DNA of 64,000 nucleotides from Aristaeella hokkaidonensis (GTDB lineage Bacteria > Bacillota > Clostridia > Christensenellales > Aristaeellaceae), in contig NZ_CP068393.1 in NCBI RefSeq assembly GCF_018128945.1, forward strand, positions 62,001 through 126,000, given 5' to 3'. Under the pieces are notes generated by a model. The model searched no databases, was not told where the DNA came from, and worked only from the letters and a program-made list of their open reading frames with translations. The position numbers and the translations under genes are program-made. Shown here piece by piece: positions 9,117-43,080 of this stretch. Position 1 is the stretch's first letter. The number at the start of each line of letters is the position of its first letter.

Positions 9117-9143
9117 TCTCACCTGTTTCTGATCTTTGTCAGC

Positions 9144-9172: not shown

Positions 9173-9177
9173 GAAAA

Positions 9178-9193: not shown

Positions 9194-9236
9194 ATATTTT
9201 GTATCAGAAAAAACGATCAATTATGGGAAATAACAC

Positions 9237-9265
9237 TTGACAATAAGGGATAAAAACCATAATAT
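9237..9265 (+). promoter_or_regulatory. Promoter of the glycan ABC transporter operon
   Basis: Perfect TTGACA (9237-9242), 17-nt spacer and TAATAT (9260-9265), leaving a leader of about 105 bases. Confidence 0.8.
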
Positions 9266-9331
9266 TTAGACAAAGACAGGGAAACGGAAAGGTAAACGGC
9301 ATAGAGAACAGGATTTCATATGCTCCAGGTC

Positions 9332-9347
9332 GTGAAACCGATAACAT
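9332..9347. promoter_or_regulatory. LacI-type operator O2 in the leader
   Basis: GTGAAACCGATAACAT shares the CCGATAACAT half with O1 (154 bp away) and lies downstream of the promoter, which suits roadblock or looping repression. Confidence 0.5.
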
Positions 9348-9377
9348 TCCCTAACAATGATTGAGGAGGAACCTATC

Positions 9378-10613: not shown

Positions 10614-10638
10614 TCCCTGATCAGGATATAACCCCCAG

Positions 10639-10671
10639 GCAGGGAAGGCTGCTTGCCTTCCCTGCTTTTTT
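10639..10671 (+). terminator. Intercistronic terminator after the binding protein gene
   Basis: A perfect 11-bp stem (10639-10649 with 10655-10665), 5-nt loop and six Ts. Partial termination here would raise the ratio of binding protein to permeases. Confidence 0.85.
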
Positions 10672-10699
10672 CAGAACACGGGAAAGGAAACGATGACAC

Positions 10700-11656: not shown

Positions 11657-11674
11657 GAAAGGAGGAGATGAATC

Positions 11675-12541: not shown

Positions 12542-12555
12542 TCCGGGAGGCTAAA

Positions 12556-17277: not shown

Positions 17278-17299
17278 GACAGGAAGGACGGAGAAAAAG

Positions 17300-19039: not shown

Positions 19040-19104
19040 CAGGCCGACGGGATCAGAATCAAACAGAATGATTATTCCACAGGAATAGTATGGAGGAAAA
19101 GAAA

Positions 19105-19947: not shown

Positions 19948-19963
19948 AGAGGAGAACAGTCAG

Positions 19964-25343: not shown

Positions 25344-25643
25344 TCAGCGGGCTCGTTCACATTCCAGAAAGACGCGGCAGTCAGCAGAGCAGCCCCAGGA
25401 GACTTTCCGGCTGAACTTTGCCTGGCCTTCGAAGGAATACCTGCGGGTCAGGCGCGTGACAATAGGATCGCCTTCCTGCCAGAAGCCAAGCTTTTTGACT
25501 TCCTCTGCCTGCCATTGTTTATGGGGATCATCCGGCAGGCCGAAGCCGCCCTCATCCAGTGTTCCGGGCAGACGGATTTCTCCGGACTGCCCCGGGATGG
25601 AGCATTCCCAGATACCCGACAGATCAACGGTTCTCATGGTCAT
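25344..25643 (-). pseudogene. N-terminal fragment of a GH2-family glycosidase
   Basis: 99 codons matching only the start of a GH2 sugar-binding domain: VDLSGIWECSIPG, the PGTLDEGGFG stretch, TRLTRRYSFEGQAKFSRKV, then a stop just after RVFLECERAR, where intact enzymes continue into the jelly-roll core. GAGGTAAATGACC precedes the ATG, so the 5' end of the gene is intact. The rest (more than 80 percent) is missing and the next downstream sequence is the DUF5107 TPR remnant. No catalytic domain remains, so no glycosidase activity is expected. Confidence 0.65.
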
Positions 25644-28978: not shown

Positions 28979-29689
28979 TTACACGTTTCGGGTTCTGACG
29001 GTTCTGATGTTCGGATGCTCGGACAGGATCGTAATCAAATCCTGGTATTCCGTTTTGCCGGGCATGGACAGCGTATATACGTTTGTATAAATATTCTGTC
29101 CATCCTGTGTATTTTCCGCGTGAAAATCCTGATCAAGGATTTTGACTTCCATCTTGTCAAACGTGTCCCGGATGTATTTCAGCGTTTCATTCCGATGAAT
29201 AAACTGGATTTCAAGCCGCTTGTAGGTATTCACATGTACGATCTGCTGCATCATCTTCAGCACGGCCATGACCACCAGACAGGCTACCAGCGCCATGGTG
29301 GTGAATCCGGCACCGACAGCCAGGCCCAGGCAGGCGGCGCACCACAGGGAGGCCGCGGTGGTGAGGCCGGAGATCCGACGGTCGGCAATGATGATTGTTC
29401 CGGCACCCAGGAAACCGACGCCTGATACAATCTGTGCTGTCAGACGCCCTACGCTGACATTGATTTGAGATGCACCAAGCGCTACCACATGGGCAATGGT
29501 CTGCTGTTCCACCAGACCGATCAGCGCGGCACCCAGGCAGACCAGCACATGCGTCCGCATGCCTGCCGGCCTGTTTTTCATTTCCCGTTCGACACCGATA
29601 ATGGCTCCGAAGATGACCGCGGCCACGATTCTGAGAACCATCTGCCAGAAAGAAAGCGGTTCTCCAAAAGTTACCCAGTCAAAAACCAT
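28979..29689 (-). CDS. MgtC/SapB-family membrane protein
   Basis: 236 residues with four or five membrane segments in the first 150 (MVLRIVAAVIFGAIIGVERE, then THVLVCLGAALIGLVEQQ and VSGVGFLGAGTIIIADRRISG), the standard MgtC core including the conserved GVERE and GFLGAGTI blocks. A soluble C-terminal ACT-like domain of about 80 residues follows (RLEIQFIHRNETLKYIRD). Family members relate to magnesium homeostasis or modulate the F-type ATPase; the role here is unproven. GGAGGTATAGT precedes the ATG. Confidence 0.85.
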   Translation of the reverse strand: MVFDWVTFGEPLSFWQMVLRIVAAVIFGAIIGVEREMKNRPAGMRTHVLVCLGAALIGLVEQQTIAHVVALGASQINVSVGRLTAQIVSGVGFLGAGTIIIADRRISGLTTAASLWCAACLGLAVGAGFTTMALVACLVVMAVLKMMQQIVHVNTYKRLEIQFIHRNETLKYIRDTFDKMEVKILDQDFHAENTQDGQNIYTNVYTLSMPGKTEYQDLITILSEHPNIRTVRTRNV

Positions 29690-29791
29690 ACTATACCTCC
29701 GGTTGCTTCTGTGTAAGATTAACAGACGGATTTAATTGTCTGCTCTTGATACAACATATTACCACACCGGGCTGATTTCAGGCAATAAAAA

Positions 29792-29826
29792 CCCGGCTGT
29801 TTTTTGCAGCCGGGCTTCCTTTTTTT
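29792..29826. terminator. Terminator hairpin next to guaA-end repeat copy 1
   Basis: CCCGGCTG (29792-29799) pairs with CAGCCGGG (29807-29814). T-rich tails occur on both strands (CTTCCTTTTTTT on plus, GGGTTTTTATT on minus). On the minus strand it follows the guaA-end repeat as in the other two copies. Confidence 0.75.
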
Positions 29827-29838
29827 GCCAAAATGTGA

Positions 29839-29865
29839 TTATTCGAACCCGATGGTTGCGACGGG
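29839..29865 (-). repeat. guaA 3'-end direct repeat, copy 1 (candidate attachment site)
   Basis: 27 bp with two mismatches to the last 27 bases of guaA (42094-42120), in the same orientation. On the minus strand it would read KPPVATIGFE then stop, but an in-frame stop lies just before the K, so it is a fragment. A terminator hairpin follows, as at guaA itself. Confidence 0.75.
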
Positions 29866-29908
29866 CGGTTTTTATCCAAACTGTTTTACCGTATGTCCGC
29901 CGGCCCAC

Positions 29909-29937
29909 TTGCTCTCAAGAGGGAAATGGTTTATAGT
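29909..29937 (+). promoter_or_regulatory. Promoter of the phosphoribosyltransferase gene
   Basis: TTGCTC (29909-29914), 17 nt and TATAGT (29932-29937), about 50 bases before ATG 29991. Confidence 0.6.
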
Positions 29938-29990
29938 AGATTCACAGAAATACCGTTTTACAGAATTTCATACAGGAGGAGGAACGAATC

Positions 29991-30632
29991 ATGTCTATCC
30001 AGATTGTTGAGATTCCGAATCACCAGAACAAGGTACGTCTGCGCGTCGCCCATGGGCATTTCGCCACAAGCCACAGCCATATCAATTACTACATTGACCT
30101 GACTATGACCAAGCACCGGCTGTCAGAAGCCCGGATTGCCGCAGAAGAATTGTGCGGCATGTACAAGAATTCCACGATCGTGGACTCCATCCTCTGCCTG
30201 GACGGAACGGAGGTGCTGGGCGCCTGCATGGCTTCAGCACTGTCCGAGGCCGGGTTCCGGAGCATGAATGCACACCAGACGATTTACGTGGTGACTCCGG
30301 AACATACCTCCGGAAGCCAGCTGATCTTCCGGGACAATATCGCTCCGATGATTGTGGGCAAGCATGTACTGGTGCTGGCAGCCTCCCTGACCACCGGCTT
30401 TACCGCCCGCTCCGCCATCGAAGCTATCCGGTATTACAGCGGTGTGCCCGCAGGTGTCTCAGCCATCTTCTCCGCGATTGATGAATGTGAAGGCTTCCCG
30501 GTCAAGAGCGTTTTCACCGTAAAGGAGAACCTCCCCGATTATGTCAGCTGCTCCTCCCACAACTGCCCGATGTGCAAGGCAGGGGAAAAGCTGACAGGAC
30601 TGGTCAACAGCCACGGCGTTTCCTCCTTCTGA
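29991..30632 (+). CDS. Type I phosphoribosyltransferase-like protein (orotate PRTase-like)
   Basis: 213 residues. The Rossmann-like PRTase core is suggested by ILCLDGTEVLGACMASALSE and the segment VLVLAASLTTGFTARSAIEAI, which aligns with the PRPP loop of type I enzymes (hydrophobic strand, two acidic residues, then TTG). Here the usual acidic pair is replaced by Ala-Ser, so catalysis is doubtful. A C-terminal SSHNCPMCKAGEKL carries two cysteines that could bind metal. AGGAGGAGGAACG precedes the ATG. It is alone between two guaA-end repeats with its own promoter. Confidence 0.6.
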   Translation: MSIQIVEIPNHQNKVRLRVAHGHFATSHSHINYYIDLTMTKHRLSEARIAAEELCGMYKNSTIVDSILCLDGTEVLGACMASALSEAGFRSMNAHQTIYVVTPEHTSGSQLIFRDNIAPMIVGKHVLVLAASLTTGFTARSAIEAIRYYSGVPAGVSAIFSAIDECEGFPVKSVFTVKENLPDYVSCSSHNCPMCKAGEKLTGLVNSHGVSSF

Positions 30633-30654
30633 GGGCGCGCTTTTTTAACAACGG

Positions 30655-30677
30655 AAGCCGGGCATCATGCCCGGCTT
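30655..30677 (+). other. Hairpin after the phosphoribosyltransferase gene
   Basis: A perfect 10-bp stem (30655-30664 with 30668-30677) with loop TCA but no T-run after it, so termination is uncertain. A six-T run lies just upstream of it instead. Confidence 0.5.
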
Positions 30678-30720
30678 ACGCTGTATTTCAATACCATTCG
30701 TCTTACTGACCTGCCGCAAG

Positions 30721-30766
30721 ATAAAAAATATCCCGGGGACCTTTGTAAATAAGGTCCCCGGGATAT
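30721..30766 (-). terminator. Terminator downstream of the fructan LacI gene
   Basis: A perfect 16-bp stem (30728-30743 with 30751-30766) and 7-nt loop. On the minus strand it is followed by TTTTTTAT. Confidence 0.9.
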
Positions 30767-30771
30767 TGATA

Positions 30772-30798
30772 TTATTCGAACTCGATGGTCGCCACGGG
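30772..30798 (-). repeat. guaA 3'-end direct repeat, copy 2 (candidate attachment site)
   Basis: 27 bp with one mismatch to the guaA end at 42094-42120, same orientation. Similarity continues weakly for 15 more bases: the reading GIPEKPVATIEFE-stop matches GuaA DISEKPVATIEFE-stop at 11 of 13 residues, then ends. It lies between the LacI stop codon and its terminator. Confidence 0.8.
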
Positions 30799-30849
30799 TT
30801 TCTCCGGGATGCCCGGAACTTCCCGCTGAAGAAAACGATACGCAAAGCG

Positions 30850-31881
30850 TCAGGTTTTACGGATGCTTTCCCGCCAGATCGGGGTTGATTTTACATGGGT
30901 CCAGCTGTACGGGAAGGAGGGAATACGGATCCGGTTGAGCAGCAATTCAGCCGCAAGATGTCCGATTTCCGTACCGCAGATCTTGACCGTGGTCAACGGG
31001 GGATCGGTGAAGGCAGACTGCATTGTTCCGTCAAAACCGGTAATCATGATATCCTCCGGGATTGACAGGTCCTTTTTTTTCAGAGCCTGTATCAGTGAAA
31101 TCGCCAGGTAATCGTTGGCACAGACAAAAGCGTCCGGCAGAGCAGGCATCTGATTGATCCTGGACAGCAGCCAGGCGGAATCATCATAGGGTGAGGAGTC
31201 GGGTTCACAGATACAGAATCGCTTATCGTACTGAAGTCCGTTTACCATCAGCCCCTGCTGATAGCCGTACCACCGTTCCCGGAAAGAGCCGCAGTGGTTA
31301 TAATCCCCGACGAATCCGATCTGCCGGGCACCTGCCCTCACAAGACGCCGGATGACTGCCATAATTCCGGCAATGTTTTCCATAGTCACATAGTCGCACT
31401 CAATCAGCGAGGTGATTGTTTCAGCCGAACTGTCCGTCAGAACCATCGGAATGTCCAGATGACAGAGCATGCTTACATAATCCGGATCAAAAAGCTCAAT
31501 TCCGACGATCCCGGCAATCTGTTCCGGAACAAAATGAGGGGGAAGTTGCCTTTTTTCCAGCTCCTCCTGTGAAATTTCATAAATTTTCAGCGCATAGCCT
31601 TCCCGGCTGATCATATCTGTAAAAGAAGAAAGGAACAGGGTGCCAAAATGGAGCTGGCTGGGGAGGTGGCAGGTCAGCAGGGCGATATTCCCGACAGACG
31701 GGGGAGAAGCGAAGACTTTTTCCGCGGGGGACCCGTATCCCAGTTCCTTTGCTTTTTGTAAAACAAGATTCCGGGTGCTCTGGGGAACAGAACCGCGGCC
31801 ATTGTAAACTTTGGAAACTGTATTTCGGGAAAGACCGCAGGCATCCGCGATGTCCTGCATAGTGATTCTTTTGGAAGGCAT
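30850..31881 (-). CDS. LacI-family regulator of the fructan locus
   Basis: 343 residues. The helix-turn-helix ITMQDIADACGLSRNTVSKVY (residues 6-26) is canonical, followed by an effector-binding domain (VGNIALLTCHLP onward, ITGFDGTMQSAFTDPPLTTV). It is divergent from the fructan ABC operon with a pair of near-perfect GTTTACATAATGTAAAC-type operators between them, one overlapping its own -35. It therefore most likely represses both itself and the transporter operon. The inducer is inferred to be a fructose-containing sugar. Confidence 0.85.
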   Translation of the reverse strand: MPSKRITMQDIADACGLSRNTVSKVYNGRGSVPQSTRNLVLQKAKELGYGSPAEKVFASPPSVGNIALLTCHLPSQLHFGTLFLSSFTDMISREGYALKIYEISQEELEKRQLPPHFVPEQIAGIVGIELFDPDYVSMLCHLDIPMVLTDSSAETITSLIECDYVTMENIAGIMAVIRRLVRAGARQIGFVGDYNHCGSFRERWYGYQQGLMVNGLQYDKRFCICEPDSSPYDDSAWLLSRINQMPALPDAFVCANDYLAISLIQALKKKDLSIPEDIMITGFDGTMQSAFTDPPLTTVKICGTEIGHLAAELLLNRIRIPSFPYSWTHVKSTPIWRESIRKT

Positions 31882-31910
31882 CGTTTCCGACCTTTCTGTT
31901 TTTTTGTGAC

Positions 31911-31939
31911 ATTATGCCTGTTTTGTTTACATATTGTAA
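31911..31939 (-). promoter_or_regulatory. Promoter of the fructan LacI gene
   Basis: Minus strand TTACAA (31934-31939), 17 nt and CATAAT (31911-31916). The -35 is inside operator O1, which implies autorepression. Confidence 0.6.
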
Positions 31940-31941
31940 CA
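31925..31941. promoter_or_regulatory. Fructan operator O1
   Basis: GTTTACATATTGTAACA differs from the palindromic O2 at three positions. Its start is 37 bp from that of O2, and it overlaps the regulator promoter. Confidence 0.65.
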
Positions 31942-31961
31942 CAACGGAATGATCAAAACAA

Positions 31962-31978
31962 GTTTACATAATGTAAAC
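31962..31978. promoter_or_regulatory. Fructan operator O2
   Basis: GTTTACATAATGTAAAC is a perfect 17-bp palindrome around its central base, typical of a LacI-family operator. A further half-site (ATATGTAAATC) lies in the spacer of the transporter promoter. Confidence 0.75.
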
Positions 31979-32067
31979 ACATCACGTCCTGACATCGAAA
32001 TAGATTGTTAATAATGGCAATAAAACGAACATAATAAAATAAATATATACAAACTGCACAAAATCAA

Positions 32068-32096
32068 TTGACAATATGTAAATCAATGTGTAAAAT
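32068..32096 (+). promoter_or_regulatory. Promoter of the fructan transporter operon
   Basis: Perfect TTGACA (32068-32073), 17 nt and TAAAAT (32091-32096), about 85 bases before ATG 32180. The region between the operators and this promoter is AT-rich and otherwise featureless. Confidence 0.8.
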
Positions 32097-32179
32097 ACAA
32101 TTGAAATCCGGGAAGCCGGATAACGGATGTTACAACTGCATAAACGACGCGACATTGCAAACTGGCGAGGAGGGGAAAA

Positions 32180-33145
32180 ATGCAAGGCGTGAAGCAACTG
32201 CCTGCCGCTTCAAAGCGGCAGAAAAACGTGACCCCCGGATACCGGCTGCGGAATTTCAGGGAGAACTTTCCGTATCTCACGATGATTCTGCCGGCCGTTC
32301 TGGTGGTATTCCTGTTTAACTATCTTCCGATCTATGGCGTCCTGATTGCGTTCCAGGATTTTATGCCGGGAGATAAAATTCTCTCTGACACCACGATCTG
32401 GGTCGGCTTTGAAAACTTTGCGAGATTCTTCAACGATGTACAGTTCTGGCCGCTGATGAAGAACACATTCATCCTGTGTATTGTCGGATTTGTCATCGGT
32501 TTCCCGCTTCCGATCATCGTATCCCTCGCACTCAACGCGCTGAAACGGAAGAAGACGGGGAAGGTTTTCCAGACGATCTATACCGCTCCCCATTTTATCT
32601 CGCTGGTTGTTCTGGTCGGTATGCTGCAGCTGTTCTTCGGGCGTTACGGCCTGGTGAACAACATTGCCGCAAGCCTGGGCGCGGAGCGGGTATCCTATTT
32701 CCTGGAAAGCTCCGCCTTCCGCCCGCTGTATATCCTGTCCAGCAACTGGCAGGACTTCGGCTGGAGCGCGGTTATCTACATCGCCGCCCTGAGCAACGTG
32801 GATCCTGTACAGCATGAAGCGGCCATGATCGACGGCGCAAGCCGGTTCCAGCGGGTGCTCCATGTGGACATTCCCGCAATCATGCCGATGATCAGCGTGA
32901 TGCTGATCATGTCCATCGGCGGCCTGATGGGCGTGGGTTATGAAAAGGCCCTGCTGATGCAGACCGACGGAAACCTGGCTGTCAGTGAACTGATCGCCAC
33001 ATACGTGTACAAACGCGGTCTGACAGGCGTTCCGGATCAGGCTTACGCAACGGCCATCGGTCTGTTCAACTCCGTGATCAACGTTGTGCTGCTGATCATT
33101 GCCAACACGACATCCAAACGGTTCTCCGAGAACTCGCTGTGGTAA
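32180..33145 (+). CDS. ABC transporter permease, LplB type
   Basis: 321 residues, six predicted membrane segments starting near residue 33 (YLTMILPAVLVVFLFNYLPIYG). The LplB-type hallmarks are FNYLPIYGVLIAFQDF at the first span and the EAA loop HEAAMIDGASRFQRVLHVDI near residues 214-233. GAGGAGGGGAAAA precedes the ATG. It works with the following permease and the 587-residue binding lipoprotein; such systems typically import plant oligosaccharides, here probably fructo-oligosaccharides given the GH32 genes. No ATPase gene is present in the operon. Confidence 0.9.
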   Translation: MQGVKQLPAASKRQKNVTPGYRLRNFRENFPYLTMILPAVLVVFLFNYLPIYGVLIAFQDFMPGDKILSDTTIWVGFENFARFFNDVQFWPLMKNTFILCIVGFVIGFPLPIIVSLALNALKRKKTGKVFQTIYTAPHFISLVVLVGMLQLFFGRYGLVNNIAASLGAERVSYFLESSAFRPLYILSSNWQDFGWSAVIYIAALSNVDPVQHEAAMIDGASRFQRVLHVDIPAIMPMISVMLIMSIGGLMGVGYEKALLMQTDGNLAVSELIATYVYKRGLTGVPDQAYATAIGLFNSVINVVLLIIANTTSKRFSENSLW

Positions 33146-33159
33146 GGAGGGGAACGAAG

Positions 33160-34077
33160 ATGACTCAGAAAGCACCCGCAATCAATATCAGGAACAACGC
33201 ACTGAAGGATACAAAGGGCGACAAGATATTCTTTGTGATCAACGCCTGTATCCTCGGCCTGCTTGCACTGATCATTCTGTATCCCCTTTACTTTATCGTG
33301 ATTGCCTCCATCTCCGACCCGGACGCGGTGCTGGGCGGACAGGTGGTGCTGGCTCCCGTGAATATCACCTTTGAAGGCTATGAGAAAGTATTCCAGCGGG
33401 GTGATATCTGGAGGGGATACCTCAACACCATTATCTATACCGTGGTGACGGTAGTTCTTTCGCTGGTGGTGACGATTCCCGCCGGCTGGGGACTGAGCCG
33501 TAAAACAACCCCCGGTAAAAAATTCTGGATGATTTACTTCATTATCCCGATGTTCTTCGGCGGCGGCCTGATCCCGTTCTATAACGTGATGAGCAGCCTG
33601 AAGCTGATCAACTCCGCCTGGTCGGTGATCCTTCCGGCAATCCTGAGCGTCTGGAACCTGTTCATGAGCAAGACGTTCTTTGAATCGTCCATTCCGGAGG
33701 GCATGCTGGAAGCAGCACGGATTGACGGCGCCGGAAAATTCCGGACCTTCTTCTCCATTGTGCTGCCGCTGTCCAAGGCAATCATTGCCGTTATGGCACT
33801 GTATTACGCAGTCGGACAGTGGAACAGCTACTTCAACGCCATGATTTTCCTGCAGGATGAAAACAAGTATCCGCTGCAGCTGGTGCTGAAGGAAATCCTG
33901 ATTGCAAGTGAGAGCACCGTGGGCGGAAGCGGCGAAACGATTCTGCAGCAGTACCGCCTGGCAAACCAGCTGAAGTATGTATCCGTGATCGTCTCCAGCC
34001 TGCCGGTGCTGTGCCTGTATCCGTTTGTCCAGAAATACTTTGCACAAGGTGTCATGATTGGCTCCCTGAAGGGATAA
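33160..34077 (+). CDS. ABC transporter permease, LplC/YtcP type
   Basis: 305 residues with start ATG 33160 after AAGGAGGGGAACGAAG; an upstream GTG at 33139 overlaps the end of the previous gene and precedes the ribosome site. Six predicted membrane segments from about residue 22 (KIFFVINACILGLLALIILY). YtcP-type features are SDPDAVLGGQVVLAPVNITFEGYEKVF after the first span and the EAA loop LEAARIDGAGKFRTFFSIVL. It overlaps no neighbour and is followed after 17 bases by the binding protein gene. Confidence 0.9.
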   Translation: MTQKAPAINIRNNALKDTKGDKIFFVINACILGLLALIILYPLYFIVIASISDPDAVLGGQVVLAPVNITFEGYEKVFQRGDIWRGYLNTIIYTVVTVVLSLVVTIPAGWGLSRKTTPGKKFWMIYFIIPMFFGGGLIPFYNVMSSLKLINSAWSVILPAILSVWNLFMSKTFFESSIPEGMLEAARIDGAGKFRTFFSIVLPLSKAIIAVMALYYAVGQWNSYFNAMIFLQDENKYPLQLVLKEILIASESTVGGSGETILQQYRLANQLKYVSVIVSSLPVLCLYPFVQKYFAQGVMIGSLKG

Positions 34078-34094
34078 AGAAGGAGGAAAACAAC

Positions 34095-35858
34095 ATGAAA
34101 AACCTGAAAAAATGGCTGCTTGTCCTGATGATGATCGTTCTGGCGGTTACACTGACTGCCTGCAGCGGCGGAGACAAGAAGGACGCCGCAGCACCGGCAG
34201 AAAAGAAGGAAGAAACCGCAGCAGCGCCGGCTGAAGAGAAGAAGGATGATACCGCTGCGGCACCCGCGACCGGCAACGCACTGACCGATACCTACGGATT
34301 CCAGTGGAAGGATCCTTCCGCCCCGATCCTGAATGAGCAGGGCGCAAAGGAGATTTCCTTCAAGGTGTATTCCTCCAAAAATGCCAGCGCGAAGGATTAC
34401 AACGACATGAAGATCATGACTGACCTGTTCGCCCAGACGAACGTGCAGGTCAACTGGGAAAATGTATCCGAATCTGTATATTCCCAGCAGAAAAACCTGA
34501 TCTTCGGCAACAAGGACAACCGTCCGGATGCGATTTACCACGCTGGTATGGGCGCCGGAGAAATCATCAAATACGCCAAGCGCAAGGTGCTGGTGCCGAT
34601 CAGCGATTACCTGGAGTATATGCCGAATTTCTCCAAGCTGCTGGAAGAACGGCCTGACATCAGGAACCAGCTGCTGAACGTGGAAAACGGAAAGATTTAT
34701 TCTCTCCCCCGCATTGAAGAAATGGGCCTGCTGCAGAGCCCGAACCTGCTGTTCCTGAATATTGCCTGGACGAAGGAAGCCATCGAAGCCGGCGCAGTCA
34801 GCGACCTGACGGCAGACCAGCTGAAGGACGGCCTGGCGCTGAAGAGCAGCCAGATGGAAGAAATCCTGACCTATTTCCGGGATCATGACATGAACGGAAA
34901 CGGCAAGACTGACGATGAGCGGCCCCTGAGCTTCGTTTACAACAACTGGCAGGGCAACCAGTGCGATCTGTACGGCATGTTCGGCCTGAACGACAACCTG
35001 GAGCACCGGGTGATTGTGGACGGCAAAGCCACTTACACGATTCAGGACGACCGCTTCAAGGAAGCGACGAACTTCATTGCCAAGTGGGTGGACGCGGGCC
35101 TGATCGACAAGGTCAGCTTTGAACAGAGCCAGGACAACTTCCTGGCCAACGGCAAGGGCCTGGAGACCTACGGCGCCTTCTACTGGTGGGAAAGCGAAAC
35201 GGTGGTTTCCAATCCCGAAAACTATATTGTGTGCAGTCCGCTGATCGGACCGAACGGGGATCAGACCATCTGCGTTTCCAACAATCCGGAGGTCAGCACC
35301 GGCGAAGTGATCCTGTTCTCCGACTGCAAGTATCCTGAGATCCTGCTTGCCTATTTTGACCGGTATTACGATCCCGTGATTTCCGCCCAGATCAACTACG
35401 GCCCCATCGGCATCGTCTATGAGGAAGAGCGGGATGAGAAGGGCATGCTGATGCAGAAGCCGCTGCCGGAAGGCGTGACCACGGACGAGCTGCGGCTGCA
35501 GAATGCACCGCTGGGTATCATTTATCTGGGCGAATACGCCTGGAACAATGTGGTTCATATGGAACCCCGCGCCCAGCTGCGCCTGGAACGCCTGCAGCAG
35601 TGCGCCAAGCCCTTCGTACCGGAAAATGTGATTCCGTTCCCGAACCTCCAGTTTACCCTGGAAGAACTGAACACGCTGAGCAACTATGAGACGAACCTGA
35701 ATGACTATATCCGGACCAACCTGATCAGCTGGCTGATGAAGGGCGGCGTGAGCGACGATGCCTGGACAGCATTCCAGAACGACCTGAACGGTAAGGTCAA
35801 CCTGGCCGGCATCCAGAAAGTATACCAGGACGCCTATGACCGCTTTGCCGCGAAATAA
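34095..35858 (+). CDS. Extracellular solute-binding lipoprotein of the fructan transporter
   Basis: 587 residues. Lipoprotein signal KWLLVLMMIVLAVTLTACSGG with the lipobox cysteine near residue 22. A low-complexity linker of about 40 residues built on repeats such as EKKEETAAAPAE and EKKDDTAAAPAT spaces the receptor from the membrane. The mature domain is a large family-1 binding fold of the LplA class (KIMTDLFAQTNVQVNWENV near 105). AGGAGGAAAACAAC precedes the ATG. The stop codon touches the next frame (TAATG). Length above 550 is normal for binding proteins paired with LplB/YtcP permeases. Confidence 0.9.
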   Translation: MKNLKKWLLVLMMIVLAVTLTACSGGDKKDAAAPAEKKEETAAAPAEEKKDDTAAAPATGNALTDTYGFQWKDPSAPILNEQGAKEISFKVYSSKNASAKDYNDMKIMTDLFAQTNVQVNWENVSESVYSQQKNLIFGNKDNRPDAIYHAGMGAGEIIKYAKRKVLVPISDYLEYMPNFSKLLEERPDIRNQLLNVENGKIYSLPRIEEMGLLQSPNLLFLNIAWTKEAIEAGAVSDLTADQLKDGLALKSSQMEEILTYFRDHDMNGNGKTDDERPLSFVYNNWQGNQCDLYGMFGLNDNLEHRVIVDGKATYTIQDDRFKEATNFIAKWVDAGLIDKVSFEQSQDNFLANGKGLETYGAFYWWESETVVSNPENYIVCSPLIGPNGDQTICVSNNPEVSTGEVILFSDCKYPEILLAYFDRYYDPVISAQINYGPIGIVYEEERDEKGMLMQKPLPEGVTTDELRLQNAPLGIIYLGEYAWNNVVHMEPRAQLRLERLQQCAKPFVPENVIPFPNLQFTLEELNTLSNYETNLNDYIRTNLISWLMKGGVSDDAWTAFQNDLNGKVNLAGIQKVYQDAYDRFAAK

Positions 35859-35872
35859 TGAAGGAGGATATT

Positions 35873-37705
35873 ATGATGAGGAACAGGCTGCATATCATTC
35901 TTTCCCTGCTGCTGGCTGTGTGCATGCTGGCCGCGGCCGGACCTGCTTTCGCGGACGGCGCGCCGACGCTGGACGGGGTGCATGACCAGAGCGTGATGGC
36001 CGGAACTGAGTTTGATGCCCTGGCAGGCGTTACCGCAACCGACGGCGCGGGCGGCGATCTGACGGATATGATCGAGATAGACGCCATGCCGGCTCTGGAT
36101 TTCAGAAACGGAAAAGCAACCCCTGAAAATCCGGGTGACTATGAACTGACTTATACCGTAACAGACGCGAACGGCGAGACAGCTGAGGATTACGCGACCC
36201 TGACGGTTACCAAGAAAACCAGCGAAGAGACGGTTTACAAAACCTTTGATTTCAGCACTGCCGCTGTGACGGACAACCGCGGCTGGGAAGCAAAGATCAA
36301 TACCGAGGTTGCCGAAGCCACAGCAGAGCTGAAAGAAGGCGCTTACGTTATTGAAATCAAGAATCCGGGTGACGGAGACGGCGCCGTGCAGCTGGCCAAG
36401 GCGGGATATCCGCTTAAGGCAGCGGACTACAGGATTAAGATCTGGGCGAAATCCACCAAGAAGACCTATGCGCATATCCTTGCCCGGAACGAACAGGCGG
36501 AGGGCTGGGAAACCTTCGGCGGCGCGTTCAATGTGGAGATCGGTCCGGAGATCGCTCCGCTGGAGCTGAACTTCACTTCTCCCGGCGAAGGCAGCGCAGA
36601 ACTGCTGTTCAACCTGGGCAAGATTACCCCGAATCCGGACAACGCGGAAGATACCACACCGGAAGATTTCAAAGTGACGATTGATAAGATCGAACTGTAT
36701 GAGATTTCCGGTGAAGAGACCCAGGTTCCGGTCTACACATCCGAATTCGCTGCCGGCGAAGGCGTGGCAGTTACAACCAGTGAAGAAGCAACGGGAAGCG
36801 TCGGCTTCGCGGACGGCAAAGCGACGGTGACCATCGACACCTATCCCAACGCGGACGGCGGCGTATGGAGCGTCAAGGCAGACATCCTGCTGGGCGACAC
36901 GAAGGTCGAGAAGGGCAAGAAGTACTTCTACAGCTTCAAGATGACGGCGGCCAACGGCCAGGGCGGTGAAGCACTGGTGGAAAGCGCGGAAAAAGGATGG
37001 GAAAACCGGGCAAACTTCAACGGCATCAGTGCCGGTGCCGGGGAAGAAACTGTCGTCTCCAGCGTCTTCACCGCGGAAGCGGATGTGGATGATCCCGTGA
37101 TCCGCCTGCAGATTGGCAATCCTCCGGAAGGCGTGACGTCCAACAGCATTGTGATCAGCGACGTCGTCTTCGGCAATGTGGAAGGAGACAAGGAAACCCA
37201 CAAGACGATTGACGCGTTCATGCCCTTCGGATCGAATACGGCCAATGCGGAAAACACAGCCTGCCCGTGGGCAACCTTCAACGGAACGGATGAAGACAAC
37301 GAGCGCGGCGTCGGCACCATCTGGGCGCAGGACGGCAGCTTCTTCTACCGGATTGACAACGGCGGCACCGTCGACTGGCACAACAAGCTGATCTGCGGTA
37401 TCGGCGGCAATCCCCTGACGCTGGCTTCCGACAGCTACTATACCGTGGAAATCACCGCGAGAGCGACGCAGCCGGTATCCTGCGGCGTGTTCCTGAACCC
37501 GATGGGAGGCTGGGATCCCCGCTTCTCTGAAGGCATGGACCTGACGACGGAATTCCAGACCTTCCGTTTCTCCACAAAGGATACGTTTGTGGTGGACATG
37601 GATTTCGAACTGCTGTTCCAGTTCGGCTCGGAAGCCCTGTCCAAGATGGGTGAGGTCACGATAGAGTTCCAGAATATGACAATTTACCAGATGACCGTCC
37701 AGTAA
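35873..37705 (+). CDS. Secreted multidomain protein, Ig-like plus carbohydrate-binding-like modules
   Basis: 610 residues with start ATG 35873 after AAGGAGGATATT; a preceding ATG at 35858 overlaps the previous stop and precedes the ribosome site. Signal peptide to about residue 28 (LHIILSLLLAVCMLAAAGPAFA). The first domain resembles bacterial Ig-like/DUF5011 repeats (VMAGTEFDALAGVTATDGAG, NPGDYELTYTVTDANGETAE). Three beta-sandwich segments of about 150 residues follow, each with the shape of CBM4/9-type modules, for example YRIKIWAKSTKKTYAHILAR and YTVEITARATQPVSCGVFLN. No catalytic motif is visible. Placed between the transporter and GH32 genes, it probably binds fructan at the surface. Confidence 0.65.
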   Translation: MMRNRLHIILSLLLAVCMLAAAGPAFADGAPTLDGVHDQSVMAGTEFDALAGVTATDGAGGDLTDMIEIDAMPALDFRNGKATPENPGDYELTYTVTDANGETAEDYATLTVTKKTSEETVYKTFDFSTAAVTDNRGWEAKINTEVAEATAELKEGAYVIEIKNPGDGDGAVQLAKAGYPLKAADYRIKIWAKSTKKTYAHILARNEQAEGWETFGGAFNVEIGPEIAPLELNFTSPGEGSAELLFNLGKITPNPDNAEDTTPEDFKVTIDKIELYEISGEETQVPVYTSEFAAGEGVAVTTSEEATGSVGFADGKATVTIDTYPNADGGVWSVKADILLGDTKVEKGKKYFYSFKMTAANGQGGEALVESAEKGWENRANFNGISAGAGEETVVSSVFTAEADVDDPVIRLQIGNPPEGVTSNSIVISDVVFGNVEGDKETHKTIDAFMPFGSNTANAENTACPWATFNGTDEDNERGVGTIWAQDGSFFYRIDNGGTVDWHNKLICGIGGNPLTLASDSYYTVEITARATQPVSCGVFLNPMGGWDPRFSEGMDLTTEFQTFRFSTKDTFVVDMDFELLFQFGSEALSKMGEVTIEFQNMTIYQMTVQ

Positions 37706-37720
37706 ACAGCAGACGAACCG

Positions 37721-37750
37721 CAGGGAGGATGGATCAGTTCATCCTCCCTG
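37721..37750 (+). other. Intercistronic hairpin before the GH32-like lipoprotein gene
   Basis: A perfect 11-bp stem (37721-37731 with 37740-37750) and 8-nt loop. The weak tail TCCTTCTGT suggests attenuation or processing rather than full termination. Confidence 0.6.
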
Positions 37751-37769
37751 TCCTTCTGTCAGGAGGTTA

Positions 37770-39353
37770 ATGATGAACAAGAAAAGACTGGCCCTTCTCC
37801 TGGCCCTTCTCCTGGCCTGCGCGATGCTGCTGGCCGGATGCCAGAACAACGGGAACACACAGAACACTGTGACAGAGGCTCCTGCAGCAGCTGCCCCGAT
37901 AGCTCCGGAAAGCGGGGAACCGTTTGCCGCTGTTGAGAATGACAAGGATTTTTCCGCACTGCGGACACCGGGAAGCCAGGAGGAAGCCTATGAGTACAGA
38001 ACCTTTTTCAGGCCGGCCATTGACGGCATCAACCAGCCCTATGTGGGCGACACGATGCCTTATTATGAGGACGGCACCTGGTATATCTATTACCTGAAAG
38101 AGGGCGGCGATTCCTACAACCACTCTATTTACCTGGCGACAACAAAGGACTTCGTAACCTATACCGAATACGACAATCCCATCCTGGAGAGCAGCCGCAG
38201 CGGCGGACAGGACGGATGGGCAGGCACGGGTTCTGTTGTAAAAGTAAAGGATACCTATTATTTCTTCTACACCGGCCATGCTTCTTCCGATATCTATGAG
38301 TATATGGAAAAAATCATGGTAGCGAAGGGAACTGCTCCGGATCAGTTTGAGAAGGTGGAAGGCTGGGAAATCACACCGCCGGCCGAACTGGGACAGAAAC
38401 GGGATTTCCGGGATCCGCAGGCGTATTACGACGCGGAAAACGACGTGATCCATATGACTGTGACCGCTGCACAGGACGGTAAGGCCAGGATCCTCAAATA
38501 TACCCTGAGCGGAGACCTGCAGAAGGCTGATTACGACGGGATCATTTTTACAAACACAGCGAAGGAAAACTTCTGGAACCTGGAGTGCAGCGACACTTTC
38601 CGGATCGGGGACAGGTATTACCTGACGTATTCCGCCCAGGACGATACCCTCTGGTACGCAATGTCAGATACTCCGTATGGCCCCTACGGGGAAGCAAAAC
38701 GGCTGGACGGCAAGCTTTTCTACGCCGCAAAGCATGTGGAAAACCAGGACGGTTCCTATATGGTCGGCTGGGCGCGCCGGAGCGAATCCCCCTCCTCCAC
38801 CTCGGAGGTTTCCGGCTGGGCCGGCAATCTGGCAGTACAGCAGCTGGCGCAGAAAGAAAACGGCGAGCTGGCGCTGATTCCGGTAAAAGCGGTTGAGGCC
38901 CAGTTTGACAAACGGCGGGAGCTGCTGATTGAACAGGATCAGATTGAAATCCGCGCAGGATCCCGTTACAGTTACACGGATGCTTTTACCGCCTATGAGA
39001 GTTTCATGCTGAAGGGAAAAGTGACGTATACGGGGAAAGGAAGCTTCGGGCTGGCTTTTGACTATAACGGACAGGATGAAAAAACAAAGATTATCTGCCT
39101 GAATCCGAAAGAACAGAAGCTGCAGCTGACATTCAATGAGGGCGGTACCCTGATTACTGAAACAGCCGCGGCGTTGGAAGCCGGAAAGGAATACAGCTTT
39201 ACCTATATCCAGGAAGGTTCCGCCGGAATCTTCTGGCTGGGAGACGAGGCATCCCTGACCGTGCGGCTGTACGGCGTCAGCGGGAAGCCTATCCGCCTGT
39301 TCACGGAGAGCAATACGGTTACATGGACTGACCTGAGAGAGTATACGAGGTAA
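37770..39353 (+). CDS. GH32-like exo-fructanase lipoprotein
   Basis: 527 residues. Lipoprotein signal LALLLALLLACAMLLAGCQ with the lipobox cysteine near residue 24, so the enzyme is outside the cell on the membrane. The five-bladed propeller has RDFRDPQAYYD (transition-state Asp) and WNLECSDTF (acid/base Glu) as in GH32. The usual nucleophile motif NDPNG is replaced by VGDTMPYYEDGTWYIYYL, where the Asp appears kept. A C-terminal beta-sandwich (SFGLAFDYNGQDEKT, then SLTVRLYGVSGKPIRLF) matches GH32 architecture. Probably cuts fructan or fructo-oligosaccharides before import. AGGAGGTTAATG gives the start; a neighbouring ATG is possible. Confidence 0.7.
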   Translation: MMNKKRLALLLALLLACAMLLAGCQNNGNTQNTVTEAPAAAAPIAPESGEPFAAVENDKDFSALRTPGSQEEAYEYRTFFRPAIDGINQPYVGDTMPYYEDGTWYIYYLKEGGDSYNHSIYLATTKDFVTYTEYDNPILESSRSGGQDGWAGTGSVVKVKDTYYFFYTGHASSDIYEYMEKIMVAKGTAPDQFEKVEGWEITPPAELGQKRDFRDPQAYYDAENDVIHMTVTAAQDGKARILKYTLSGDLQKADYDGIIFTNTAKENFWNLECSDTFRIGDRYYLTYSAQDDTLWYAMSDTPYGPYGEAKRLDGKLFYAAKHVENQDGSYMVGWARRSESPSSTSEVSGWAGNLAVQQLAQKENGELALIPVKAVEAQFDKRRELLIEQDQIEIRAGSRYSYTDAFTAYESFMLKGKVTYTGKGSFGLAFDYNGQDEKTKIICLNPKEQKLQLTFNEGGTLITETAAALEAGKEYSFTYIQEGSAGIFWLGDEASLTVRLYGVSGKPIRLFTESNTVTWTDLREYTR

Positions 39354-39357
39354 AACG

Positions 39358-40851
39358 ATGAAGAAAACGGTAAACCACAGCCTGCTGTTTGCCAGGGCGT
39401 ATGAGCAGGCTGAAGGCGGAAAAATCCCGCGGGAAAGCCGTCCGGTTTTCCACCTGACGCCTTTGACCGGATGGATGAACGATCCCAACGGTTTCTGCTA
39501 TTACCACGGCCAGTATCACCTGTTCTACCAGTACAATCCGTATGATACGGAATGGGATGCCATGCACTGGGGACATGCAGTCAGCCATGACCTGCTTCAC
39601 TGGACTTATCTGCCTGCCGCATTGGCTCCGGACGCTCCGTATGATTCCTTCGGATGCTTTTCAGGCAGCGCGGCGGAACTGCCGGACGGCAGGCACCTGC
39701 TGATGTATACCGGCGTGAGGCAGGAGGGCGGGGATAAGTCCAGGGAGTTCCAGACCCAGTGCATTGCAGTCGGCGACGGGACAGATTACCAAAAGTATGA
39801 AAAGAACCCGGTTCTCGACAGCAATGCACTTCCGGAAGGCCTGAGTCCCTACGATTTCAGGGATCCGAAGATCTGGCGGACAGAGAACGGAGCATACCGC
39901 TGTGTGGTGGGAGCCCGCCGGGAGGACAAACGGGGTGTTCTGCTCCAGTATGAAAGCCGGGACGGATTTGAATGGCGGTATGTCGGAGTACTGGCAGAGA
40001 ATGACGGACGGTTCGGCCTCATGTGGGAATGCCCTGATTTCTTCCCGCTGGACGGAAAACATGTACTGTTTGTCAGTCCGCAGGATATGCTTCCTGAAGA
40101 CTTTGAATACCATAACGGTAACGGTACCGTCTGCCTCACAGGGCGAATGGACGGAGACCGGTTCGTCGAGGAGAATAACCAGGCGATCGATTACGGGATT
40201 GACTTTTACGCTCCGCAGACCATTCTGACTCCTGACGGAAGGCGTGTGATGATCGGCTGGATGCAAAACTGGGACACCTGCAAAACAACCGGTTATGAAG
40301 AACGGCCCTGGTTTGGCCAGATGAGCCTGCCGCGGGAACTGTTCTTCAGGAATGGCCGTCTTTACCAGCAGCCGGTCCGGGAATTGGCGCAGTACAGAAG
40401 CGGGAAAGTGGAGTATCGGGATGTCCTTTTGGACGGAGAAAAGAGCCTGGAAGGAATCGAAGGGCGGGTTGTTGAACTGGATATCCATCTGCGATGCGCT
40501 GATCCGGATACCCCCTACCAGAAGTTCATCATGAAGTTTGCCCAGAATGAGAAATACCATTCAGTTCTCAGCTACCGGCCTTATGAGTCATGGCTGCAGA
40601 TTGACCGCAAATTCTCAGGATCCAGGCGAGCATATATCCATCAGCGCCGATGCCTGGTATCCGATCAGCGGGGTGAAATCCGGCTGCATGTGATTCTGGA
40701 CCGCTTCAGTATGGAGGTTTTTATCAATGACGGGGAACAGGTGATGACCGCCACAATCCTCACAGGGTCCGATGCACGGAAGATCTCGTTTGAAGCCGAT
40801 GGCCAAGTGATGATGGATGTCACAAAATACTCGCTGATTGAAAAGGAATGA
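39358..40851 (+). CDS. GH32 beta-fructosidase (sucrose-6-phosphate hydrolase type), cytoplasmic
   Basis: 497 residues, no signal peptide. All GH32 motifs are present: GWMNDPNGFCYY (nucleophile Asp near residue 41), YDFRDPKIW (transition-state Asp) and MWECPDFFPL (acid/base Glu). A C-terminal beta-sandwich follows (RFSMEVFINDGEQ). It hydrolyses imported fructo-oligosaccharides or sucrose to release fructose for the kinase downstream. ATG 39358 lies five bases after the previous stop. Because ABC import does not phosphorylate, the true substrate is probably unphosphorylated. Confidence 0.92.
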   Translation: MKKTVNHSLLFARAYEQAEGGKIPRESRPVFHLTPLTGWMNDPNGFCYYHGQYHLFYQYNPYDTEWDAMHWGHAVSHDLLHWTYLPAALAPDAPYDSFGCFSGSAAELPDGRHLLMYTGVRQEGGDKSREFQTQCIAVGDGTDYQKYEKNPVLDSNALPEGLSPYDFRDPKIWRTENGAYRCVVGARREDKRGVLLQYESRDGFEWRYVGVLAENDGRFGLMWECPDFFPLDGKHVLFVSPQDMLPEDFEYHNGNGTVCLTGRMDGDRFVEENNQAIDYGIDFYAPQTILTPDGRRVMIGWMQNWDTCKTTGYEERPWFGQMSLPRELFFRNGRLYQQPVRELAQYRSGKVEYRDVLLDGEKSLEGIEGRVVELDIHLRCADPDTPYQKFIMKFAQNEKYHSVLSYRPYESWLQIDRKFSGSRRAYIHQRRCLVSDQRGEIRLHVILDRFSMEVFINDGEQVMTATILTGSDARKISFEADGQVMMDVTKYSLIEKE

Positions 40852-40856
40852 CACGG

Positions 40857-41819
40857 ATGAAACATTATGACGTGGTTGCGCTCGGTGAACTGCTGATCGA
40901 TTTTGCCCCACATTCCGTCAATGAGGCAGGCTACCCGGTCCTGTCCGCCAACCCGGGCGGAGCGCCGGGCAATTTCCTGGCAGCGCTGACAAAGTACGGC
41001 TGCAGGACTGCCATGATCGGAAAAGTCGGCGATGACGCCTTCGGGAAAGCGCTGGTGAAAACACTGGAGGATGCCGGGATAGATGCCCGGGGGATCCGGA
41101 TTGACCCGAACGTTTTTACAACGCTGGCCTTTGTTTCCCTGGACGCGTCCGGGAACCGGGATTTCAGCTTCGCTCGTAAACCGGGCGCCGATACCTGTCT
41201 GACCCCGGAAGAAGTGGATGAAGAGCTCATCGCGGACGCGAAAGTTTTCCACTTCGGCACGCTCTCTCTGACGGATGAGCCTGCCGCCGGGGCTACCCGA
41301 CATGCCATTGAACTGGCAAAGCGCCACGGTGCGCTGATCAGCCTGGATCCCAATCTGCGCAAGCCACTGTGGAAGCGGGAGGAGGATGCCAGGGAAGCGA
41401 TTGAGTGGAGCCTGCATCAGGCGGATATTGTCAAGATCAGTGATGAGGAGATTGACTGGCTGTGGGGCTTTTCCCCGGAAGAAGGCGCTGAAAAGCTGCT
41501 GCGGGAATACGGCGCCTCACTGGTGTATGCCACGCTGGGACCCAAGGGCTGCTATGCTGCAAATGGCACGAACCGCGTGACAGTGCAAAGTCCGTCCGGT
41601 ATTCATGTTGTCGACACAACCGGCGCCGGCGATATATTCGGCGGCAGCGCAACGAGTCAGTTTATCAGGTGCAAAAAAACGCCGGCAGATCTGACAGAAA
41701 CAGAACTCCGCCGGATTGTCAGTTTTGCCTGTACCGCTGCAAGCCTTTCAACGCAGACGCACGGTGGAATCGCAAGCGTTCCGGAGTATTCGGATGTTAC
41801 CCGGAAAATGGAAGAGTGA
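40857..41819 (+). CDS. Fructokinase, PfkB family
   Basis: 320 residues. The N-terminal DVVALGELLIDFAP, the substrate loop NPGGAPGNFLAALTKYG and the C-terminal DTTGAGDIFGG with the catalytic Asp define a PfkB fructokinase of the ScrK class. It phosphorylates fructose freed by the upstream GH32. ATG 40857 suits the AAAAGGA site (nine bases); an ATG at 40848 would overlap the GH32 stop but abuts the ribosome site. Last gene of the fructan operon, closed by a terminator. Confidence 0.9.
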   Translation: MKHYDVVALGELLIDFAPHSVNEAGYPVLSANPGGAPGNFLAALTKYGCRTAMIGKVGDDAFGKALVKTLEDAGIDARGIRIDPNVFTTLAFVSLDASGNRDFSFARKPGADTCLTPEEVDEELIADAKVFHFGTLSLTDEPAAGATRHAIELAKRHGALISLDPNLRKPLWKREEDAREAIEWSLHQADIVKISDEEIDWLWGFSPEEGAEKLLREYGASLVYATLGPKGCYAANGTNRVTVQSPSGIHVVDTTGAGDIFGGSATSQFIRCKKTPADLTETELRRIVSFACTAASLSTQTHGGIASVPEYSDVTRKMEE

Positions 41820-41895
41820 CCGCTTCTGAGGTGCGGGATGACAATGGATGTCTCTCACAGTAAGGAAAAAGTACTGAAATGAATGATATATGCTT

Positions 41896-41922
41896 TCCCG
41901 GGAATTCATCCCGGGATTTTTT
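41896..41922 (+). terminator. Intrinsic terminator of the fructan operon
   Basis: An 8-bp TCCCGGGA stem (41896-41903 with 41909-41916), 5-nt loop and six Ts. The 41923-42040 stretch after it holds no further feature that I can support. Confidence 0.85.
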
Positions 41923-42040
41923 AATTCGAGAAGGGCGGTTGCCTTTCCGTATAGAGTGCCGATAAAAGAAGGACGGTTCATTGTTTCCGGAATGAGCACT
42001 TTGCCCGGGAAAAAGGACGCAGCAAAGTTGTCCGGAATAC

Positions 42041-42081
42041 AAAAAAATACCCGGGCACCTTGAAGAACAAGGATACCCGGG
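42041..42081 (-). terminator. Intrinsic terminator of guaA
   Basis: Arms near 42050-42062 and 42069-42081 (CCCGGG plus CCTT/AAGG, with a small bulge). On the minus strand it ends in TATTTTTTT. Confidence 0.8.
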
Positions 42082-42093
42082 AAGATTATGCGC

Positions 42094-42120
42094 TTATTCG
42101 AACTCGATGGTCGCGACGGG
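42094..42120 (-). repeat. guaA 3'-end repeat, native copy (copy 3)
   Basis: The final 27 bases of guaA, including the stop codon. Repeated with one mismatch at 30772-30798 and two at 29839-29865, always in the same orientation and always followed on the minus strand by a terminator hairpin. Confidence 0.8.
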
Positions 42121-43080
42121 CTTTTCGGAGATATCCCACAGGACGCGGTTGACACCGTCAACAGTGGAAATAATGCGATCCCGCATGGTGCAGAGCACGC
42201 TGAAGGGGATTTCCGGCACGGTGGCGGTGACGGCATCCACAGTATTGACAGCACGGATGATCACTGCCCAGCCCATGTAGCGCTGGCCCTTGCCGTCCAC
42301 ATACTTGATACCGGTGGACTGGAAATCGGGAATGGTGCAGAAGTACTGCCACGGAACCTCGGGCAGCTTGCCGATCTCCTCACGGACGATGGCATCGGCT
42401 TCACGGAGCGCTTCCAGGCGGTCACGGGTGATGGCACCGACGCAGCGCACACCCAGGCCGGGGCCGGGGAAGGGCTGACGGTAAACCATGCCGTCCGGCA
42501 GTCCCAGTTCTTTACCGACAACGCGGACTTCGTCCTTGTAGAGCAGTTTGACGGGCTCGACCAGTTCAAACTGGAGGTCGTCCGGCAGGCCGCCGACATT
42601 GTGGTGAGCCTTGACGCCGACGCTCTCTGTAATATCAGGATAGATGGTACCCTGTGCCAGGAAAGCGATGCCATCCTGTTTGCGGGCTTCTTCCTCAAAG
42701 ACACGGATAAACTCGGCACCGATGATCTTGCGCTTCTGTTCGGGATCGCTGACACCAGCCAGCTTGTCCAGGAAGCGGTCGACTGCATCCACGTACACCA
42801 GGTTGGCTTTCATCTGGTTGCGGAAAACTTCGATAACCTGTTCGGGTTCACCTTTGCGGAGCAGGCCATGATTGACATGCACGCATACCAGCTGCTGGCC
42901 GATGGCCTTGATCAGCAGGGCAGCGACAACGGAGCTGTCCACACCGCCGGAAAGAGCCAGCAGAACCTTTTTGTCACCAACCTGTTTGCGGACTGCTTCC
43001 ACCTGCTCGGCAATGAATGCCTGTGCGAGGGCGGGAGTTGTAATCCGTTCCATGCTTTCGGGCCGTTTGTTGCTATCCAT
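42094..43080 (-). CDS. guaA: GMP synthase ATP-pyrophosphatase subunit without glutaminase domain
   Basis: Amidates XMP to GMP using ATP. 328 residues, against about 520 for the usual bacterial enzyme, because the N-terminal class I glutamine amidotransferase domain is absent. The P-loop LLALSGGVDSSVVAALL is near residues 40-56, and the C-terminal dimerisation and XMP-binding domain is complete (QPFPGPGLGVRCVGAI, IPFSVLCTMRDRI, ending KPVATIEFE). GGAGGATAAGAA precedes the ATG and no amidotransferase frame precedes it. It must use free ammonia or a separate glutaminase encoded elsewhere, as in archaeal two-subunit enzymes. Its 3' end is the repeated sequence. Confidence 0.9.
   Translation of the reverse strand: MDSNKRPESMERITTPALAQAFIAEQVEAVRKQVGDKKVLLALSGGVDSSVVAALLIKAIGQQLVCVHVNHGLLRKGEPEQVIEVFRNQMKANLVYVDAVDRFLDKLAGVSDPEQKRKIIGAEFIRVFEEEARKQDGIAFLAQGTIYPDITESVGVKAHHNVGGLPDDLQFELVEPVKLLYKDEVRVVGKELGLPDGMVYRQPFPGPGLGVRCVGAITRDRLEALREADAIVREEIGKLPEVPWQYFCTIPDFQSTGIKYVDGKGQRYMGWAVIIRAVNTVDAVTATVPEIPFSVLCTMRDRIISTVDGVNRVLWDISEKPVATIEFE

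Follow-up and report, generated by a model that had tools for sequence, protein, structure and literature searches.

Copies of a short guaA 3' end bound a phosphoribosyltransferase unit and a fructan locus in Aristaeella hokkaidonensis

The 3' end of guaA was reportedly described as an insertion site by Song et al. in 2012, as later papers citing that work have it. Serial insertion at the 3' end of a gene also builds the composite staphylococcal cassette chromosome (SCC) islands, which are bounded by copies of that end and some of which, the ccr-less pseudo-SCC, have no recombinase. Islands, integrative and conjugative elements (ICEs) and integrative and mobilizable elements (IMEs) are known at the guaA 3' end, ATE-1 and Gisul2 being named in the passages drawn on here (PMC5704250). 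The repeats of ICERspD18B, ACAATNGAGTGGGAATNNTT, contain GAGTGGGA according to an excerpt of PMC7775301, and streptococcal guaA repeats are described in a section of PMC4701971 as holding just the exact 3' end of the gene. Cis-mobilizable elements (CIMEs) are flanked by att sites, lack recombination and transfer genes, stand in tandem at a gene 3' end and measure 1.2-13 kb, and those of S. salivarius carry carbohydrate enzymes (sections of PMC7563491 and PMC5704250). Here we describe a probable stack of this kind behind a short guaA gene in a 64,000-nucleotide stretch of Aristaeella hokkaidonensis (contig NZ_CP068393.1, positions 62,001 to 126,000; the window). We propose, with a probability of about 0.82, that this guaA end is an attachment site at which at least two CIME-like cassettes without a recombinase have accreted.

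The target gene end is the same as that of ICERspD18B, ICE_SmiB6_guaA, ATE-1 and Gisul2, and GAGTGGGA, present in the ICERspD18B repeats as excerpted, likewise occurs in the W-tailed sites of this genus (tails are named by the penultimate GuaA residue, and genomes by G numbers, that of the window being G000). Unlike in those islands, the target here is a paralogue without the glutaminase (GATase) domain, the core often has the F form GAGTTCGA, and the window units carry no integrase or transfer genes. As in guaA islands, direct repeats stand at both ends, and the site is unoccupied or differently occupied in G009, G008 and G005 (and in G064 for the integrase-bearing kind); an integrase of their own is missing. 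The tail copies at both ends correspond to the attL and attR of a CIME, and no recombination, mobilization or conjugation gene families were found. In contrast to streptococcal CIMEs, the window units have no active element in tandem beside them, no integrase was found with the F-tailed class in this genus, and derivation from a given IME may be supposed rather than seen. An IME has its own integrase and a relaxase or origin of transfer (oriT); profile scans of the window units found neither integrase nor relaxase families (oriT was not looked for), whereas an element in G018 has both integrase and relaxase. The SCC islands resemble the window in serial 3'-end insertion but have another target gene and serine recombinases, and the cargo here serves carbohydrate use. 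Neither a series of four tails at a GATase-less guaA nor a stack of sugar cassettes there was found in a search of open-licence papers. Islands at guaA and CIMEs, also with carbohydrate cargo, are thus known; the serial tail replacement and the stacking of sugar cassettes appear to be new.

Three guaA ends and the units between them

The last 27 bases of the short guaA occur in three copies of one orientation, identical (copy 1) or with one (copy 2) or two mismatches (copy 3). A search of the whole genome (3,390,518 bases, single contig) with up to three mismatches returned three matches, all in the window; with the same settings the opposite strand and a reversed-pattern control returned none. 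About 3e-5 such matches are expected by chance at uniform base composition. A stable hairpin lies 3' of every copy in the guaA sense. An earlier reading made from the letters alone (the sequence-only reading) had claimed both the repeats and a terminator hairpin behind each, and both were borne out. It had also allowed that the repeat might be a common terminator motif at unrelated gene ends, which three matches in 3.39 Mb do not support. The elements of the stack are as follows.

28979..29689, minus strand: MgtC-family gene (PF02308), outer flank of the stack
29780..29838, minus strand: hairpin 3' of copy 3 (fold -25.9 kcal/mol, z -4.7)
29839..29865, minus strand: copy 3, outermost displaced tail, PVATIGFE and stop (sequence matches)
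29991..30632, plus strand: orotate-phosphoribosyltransferase-like protein (NF002620 29 bits, below cut-off; PDB 2p1z, E 5e-4)
30722..30771, minus strand: hairpin 3' of copy 2 (fold -31.2 kcal/mol, z -7.7)
30772..30798, minus strand: copy 2, displaced guaA tail, ...GIPEKPVATIEFE and stop in the guaA frame (frame reading)
30799..42093, no strand: fructan cassette, 11.3 kb, the interval between copies 1 and 2
42040..42093, minus strand: hairpin/terminator 3' of copy 1 (fold -22.5 kcal/mol, z -5.5)
42094..42120, minus strand: copy 1, present guaA tail, PVATIEFE and stop, core ATCGAGTTCGAATAA (sequence matches)
42094..43080, minus strand: short GuaA, GMP synthase ATPase and C-terminal domains, 328 aa (Pfam GMP_synt_C; NCBIfam guaA_Cterm, 409 bits)

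The insertion site of the stack is the 3' end of this short guaA. Pfam and NCBIfam profile scans found no GATase domain in the 328-aa protein, and a full-length guaA paralogue lies elsewhere in the same genome, at C1:3322912-3323853. The sequence-only reading was therefore right about the gene end and is refined as to the gene, which is the GATase-less paralogue. The short form and a full-length paralogue coexist in the genus; in G044, G045 and G047, from other families, only the short form occurred in the genomes sampled.

We propose that the short guaA 3' end serves as an attachment site and that elements would integrate within its last codons, at a core of about ATCGAGTTCGAATAA or ATCGAGTGGGAATRA. 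Each element would give guaA a new set of last few codons and a terminator, and would push the old tail and its terminator to the far end of the element. The 0.9-kb phosphoribosyltransferase (PRTase) unit, bounded by copies 3 and 2, would have inserted first, followed by the 11.3-kb fructan unit, bounded by copies 2 and 1. Copy 3 would then be the oldest tail, copy 2 the F tail brought by the PRTase cassette, and copy 1 the tail supplied by the latest insertion, that of the fructan cassette. The cassettes may be CIME-like derivatives or passengers of elements with a helix-turn-helix (HTH) gene, an excisionase-like gene and a tyrosine integrase. Such an integrase would have moved them in cis or in trans, and homologous recombination of the flanks may have given further spread later. 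We infer the insertion order, the descent from integrase-bearing elements, the recombinase used and any present mobility.

The 0.9-kb segment is the best-supported mobile unit. The PRTase gene is its sole gene. Third-position identity to the window gene was 92.0-95.3% in all seven genomes compared, while that of guaA in the same genomes ran from 98.2% down to 58.8% (the G005 PRTase gene is partial, and G030 has the two genes on different contigs). Because PRTase identity stays high where guaA identity does not, the gene must spread horizontally, and it carries no recombinase of its own. Similarity between G009 and G000 covers 29859-30804, from inside copy 3 to just beyond copy 2. A near-identical twin of the copy-2 hairpin lies directly behind guaA in G009 and behind a displaced F core in G005. 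More distant PRTase relatives (54-56%) were found in six further genomes of the genus. As to carriage by phages, the PRTase protein and the 18-base F core gave no usable matches in viral_contigs.

The fructan cassette holds eight genes.

30850..31881, minus strand: LacI-family regulator (PF00356, PF13377)
32180..33145, plus strand: ABC permease (PF00528)
33139..34077, plus strand: ABC permease (PF00528)
34011..35858, plus strand: lipoprotein, 615 aa, probable ABC sugar-binding protein (weak lipoprotein match below cut-off; function from operon context; start as in the open reading frame list, the real start probably being later)
35858..37705, plus strand: Ig-like/CBM_4_9 carbohydrate-binding surface protein (PF16403, PF02018)
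37770..39353, plus strand: GH32 protein, probably secreted, as judged by eye (PF00251, 77 bits)
39358..40851, plus strand: GH32 fructosidase/sucrose-6-phosphate hydrolase family (PF00251, PF08244; TIGR01322 above cut-off)
40848..41819, plus strand: fructokinase-like PfkB kinase (PF00294, 180 bits; best NCBIfam match fructokinase, below cut-off)

None of the nine scanned genes of the two units matched a recombination, mobilization or conjugation family, and neither the lipoprotein nor the PRTase protein had a Pfam match. The nearest PF00589 match in G000 lies more than 900 kb from the site, PF00239 gave a weak match elsewhere in that genome and none near the site, and no homologue of the guaA-site integrase described below was found in it at E 1e-30. 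The absence of a visible recombinase, claimed from the letters alone, thus agrees with the profile scans.

Tails and occupants of the site in relatives

The downstream region of guaA was compared among relatives, as the sequence-only reading had suggested. The PRTase unit comes straight after guaA in G009, where the site has no fructan genes, and this supports insertion. The G009 guaA ends IEFE before a PRTase-type hairpin; about 1.1 kb away, a displaced copy ends IEWE and is followed by a terminator like that of the W-tailed G022. In G005 guaA ends IEME and is followed by 2.5 kb with an HTH gene, and the F core with the PRTase-type hairpin is displaced by those 2.5 kb; a later element replaced the F by M. 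The cargo differs elsewhere as well. In G008 the guaA and PRTase genes are 14.6 kb apart, with GH3, ABC permease and histidine kinase genes in between, and in G016 guaA tails mark off segments of 29 and 22 kb, whose genes include some for hexuronate use and for ABC transporters. The order seen in the window is not common to all relatives. The fructan cassette is absent from the guaA site in G009, G008 and G005. In G002, which we take to be Aristaeella lactis, guaA, fructan and PRTase genes are kept, copy 3 is degraded, and 21.7 kb are added between the PRTase and MgtC genes.

The fructan cluster can stand apart from guaA. In G064 the two share a contig but are about 480 kb from each other, and the 40 kb behind the guaA of G012 do not contain the cluster. 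In G021 and G034 it adjoins a PRTase end on contigs without guaA, next to a non-guaA arm resembling that of G068. G010 was dropped as a further case, its guaA standing at a contig end.

Among 33 guaA genes the penultimate letter of GuaA was W, F, M or Y. On a tree of guaA bodies built without the last 15 codons (the G010 gene, cut at the tail, was scored W), the letter changed at least seven times, W and F alone accounting for five changes. A switch from W to F needs two substitutions in the codon, TGG becoming TTC (or TTT), and is more simply explained by repeated exchange through insertion. The F-tailed G008, G013, G016 and G031 have about 130 bp in common right behind guaA, as the end of a single element would. 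A degenerate core, searched with at most one mismatch in 746 kb around the sites, matched 46 times in the guaA sense, namely at 25 guaA ends themselves and 21 further copies, and never in the other sense. The displaced tails of G001, G008, G009 and G068 become guaA-like about 33-36 bp before the stop (by eye), and the displaced copies in G005, G018, G006, G021 and G034 consist of the 12-15-bp core only.

Several rearrangements were noted beside these comparisons. The window locus 7282-20761, left of the MgtC gene here, sits between the MgtC and PRTase genes in G002, and the 21.7-kb insert of that genome holds sugar-use genes. An unexplained rearrangement in G001 has placed a 300-bp piece resembling the start of mgtC (L058:6627-6923, 85% to window 29474-29772) between copy 2 and the gene for the LacI-family regulator. 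Homology to G023 starts at window 25347-25351, where G001 has about 23 kb more, another rearrangement point. In G006:C22 (L102:4680-4763), a homologue of window 7795-8046 runs into a guaA-type tail (...YAPG, then TIEFE and stop) with a terminator, just ahead of the fructan cluster. This may be a secondary-site insertion inside another gene; it was seen on one draft contig and was not used as support.

Integrases at guaA ends and the F-tailed class

A search for tyrosine recombinases that use the guaA site, also suggested beforehand, found them within the genus. Just behind the guaA of G006 lies a gene for a tyrosine integrase that combines an arm-binding, a SAM-like and a catalytic domain. Ahead of it come the gene for an HTH repressor, on the opposite strand, and that for a small HTH protein, which is probably an excisionase. 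All three genes recur in G018. The elements bounded by core repeats measure 14.9 kb in G006 and 36.2 kb in G018, the latter also with a relaxase. Directly behind guaA, G064 has a sequence that matches the one past the far core of the G018 element (84% over 98 bp) and its counterpart in G006 (77% over 71 bp), and G064 is, on this alignment, an empty site. A homologous integrase (E 1e-30 or better) occurred in 12 of 45 genomes of the genus and stood at a guaA 3' end in 10 of the 12: at the short guaA in G006, G018, G007, G033 and G029, and at the full-length gene in G016, G066, G063, G010 and G004. It lay away from a guaA 3' end in G008 and G002. Of 11 genomes, nine had the HTH gene behind guaA, short or full-length, and G068 had it behind a core copy (G062 was not examined). 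Among the best 80 short-guaA loci, at least 12 of which are contigs of genomes already used, six had this integrase starting within 3 kb downstream, and all six are W-tailed. Many titles in this list are those of ruminant-gut metagenome-assembled genomes.

A decay series can be arranged from G033, with a truncated integrase, through G003 and G005, with an HTH gene and no matching integrase, to G068, where the HTH gene and a broken PF00589 piece lie on a contig away from guaA; no direct ancestor of the window's units was found. The earlier suggestions of tandem accretion and of a stripped or trans-mobilised island both fit. The G018 guaA element also holds a group of tyrosine recombinase genes (L083:9865-13059). 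On plasmid NZ_CP069422.1 of A. lactis WTE2008, from the bovine rumen, an integrase homologous to the guaA-site one has HTH genes upstream (L221:6001-7092). The integrase stands at about 4500-5562 in the plasmid and in G002:C2 alike, and in the matching locus G002:C2 a guaA-type core was not found within 1.5 kb of the integrase.

We searched for a recombinase of the F class. No serine recombinase was found near the site in 16 genomes searched, and no F-class integrase was found in the genus. An order-wide scan of 297 genomes found the exact F core in six: four of the genus, G254, where it is not at a guaA end, and G093. In the latter, which belongs to another family, an F-tailed full-length guaA is followed by the HTH gene and by an integrase gene that the contig end cuts short (60% over 113 aa). 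This integrase is the nearest candidate for an F-class recombinase. G093 also weakened the idea that no integrase of this family can go with an F tail.

Weighing the explanations

Several results weigh against the attachment-site account. G023 and G001 have the same MgtC-PRTase-fructan-guaA order as the window. G008 lacks copy 2 and its hairpin, and its junction is not clean. Most relatives are draft genomes. The fructan cluster of G009 is on another contig (72-82% DNA identity), so its absence there is specific to the site. Codon use of the eight fructan-locus genes did not differ from that of eight hand-picked flanking genes (permutation fraction 0.33; G+C at third codon positions 0.68 and 0.69), and the foreign origin that such a comparison was meant to reveal is not supported. 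The segment is also common to G001, G023 and G002 and is thus not a recent arrival. The island proposed from the letters alone is supported as an insertion; its fructan part is neither recent nor compositionally foreign. The F-tailed sites raise a further difficulty. Among all genus genomes with a located short guaA and at least 2 kb assembled downstream, the guaA-site integrase described above was found at 0 of 15 F-tailed and 5 of 17 other sites (p 0.046), and the HTH gene at 0 of 15 and 6 of 17 (p 0.019), relatedness being ignored in both tests. Neither PF00589 nor PF00239 was found near the site in 13 of the 15 F-tailed genomes, those searched. G010, G019, G020, G026, G032, G036 and G067 were left out for having less than 2 kb downstream, the short guaA was not found in G024, G025, G035, G061, G062 and G065, G031 and G014 have contig-cut guaA genes, and G063 and G066 entered through the F-core search. 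With neither gene at any of the 15, a recombinase can only be guessed at for the window's cassettes.

The units might instead have entered by Campbell-type homologous insertion, in which circles or fragments carrying a guaA 3' segment and cargo recombine without a site-specific recombinase and the tail length equals the shared segment. At 52 and 74 codons in G016 and at least 54 in G005:C9, some guaA tails greatly exceed a core in length; homologous recombination fits them better and probably operates at this site as well. Identity around the site is also uneven between G000, G001 and G023. The nearly common starting point of the displaced tails in G001, G008, G009 and G068 speaks against it, however, as do the 12-15-bp cores, which are short for ordinary homologous recombination, and the integrase family at the guaA core. 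We consider it unlikely as the general explanation. Relics of tandem guaA duplication, with the cargo as old neighbours, would account for the guaA-like frame still readable in copy 2 and could be linked to the full-length paralogue. In the loci examined, however, the extra copies are only 3' pieces, their terminators differ and the cargo depends on the species, which makes decayed duplicates highly improbable. A chance or common terminator-associated motif has the hairpin behind every window copy in its favor; it was rejected as next to impossible on the genome count, the chance expectation and the strand bias of the degenerate core.

Under the attachment-site account, we may speculate, with considerable doubt, that the penultimate residue (W, F, M or Y) is a barcode of the last element, and that rewriting GAGTGGGA to GAGTTCGA lets an F-class cassette shut out the common W-class integrases and admit a recombinase of its own F class. 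If this were true, a cassette of one gene and 1 kb would switch the site over and pass from species to species.

The attachment-site account makes the order of insertion readable from displaced gene tails, and G009, G005 and G064 are natural before and after states that make tail replacement testable. Islands of this kind would be missed by searches for integrase genes. Our results suggest that a rumen genus gains and swaps whole loci for carbohydrate use through one attachment site.

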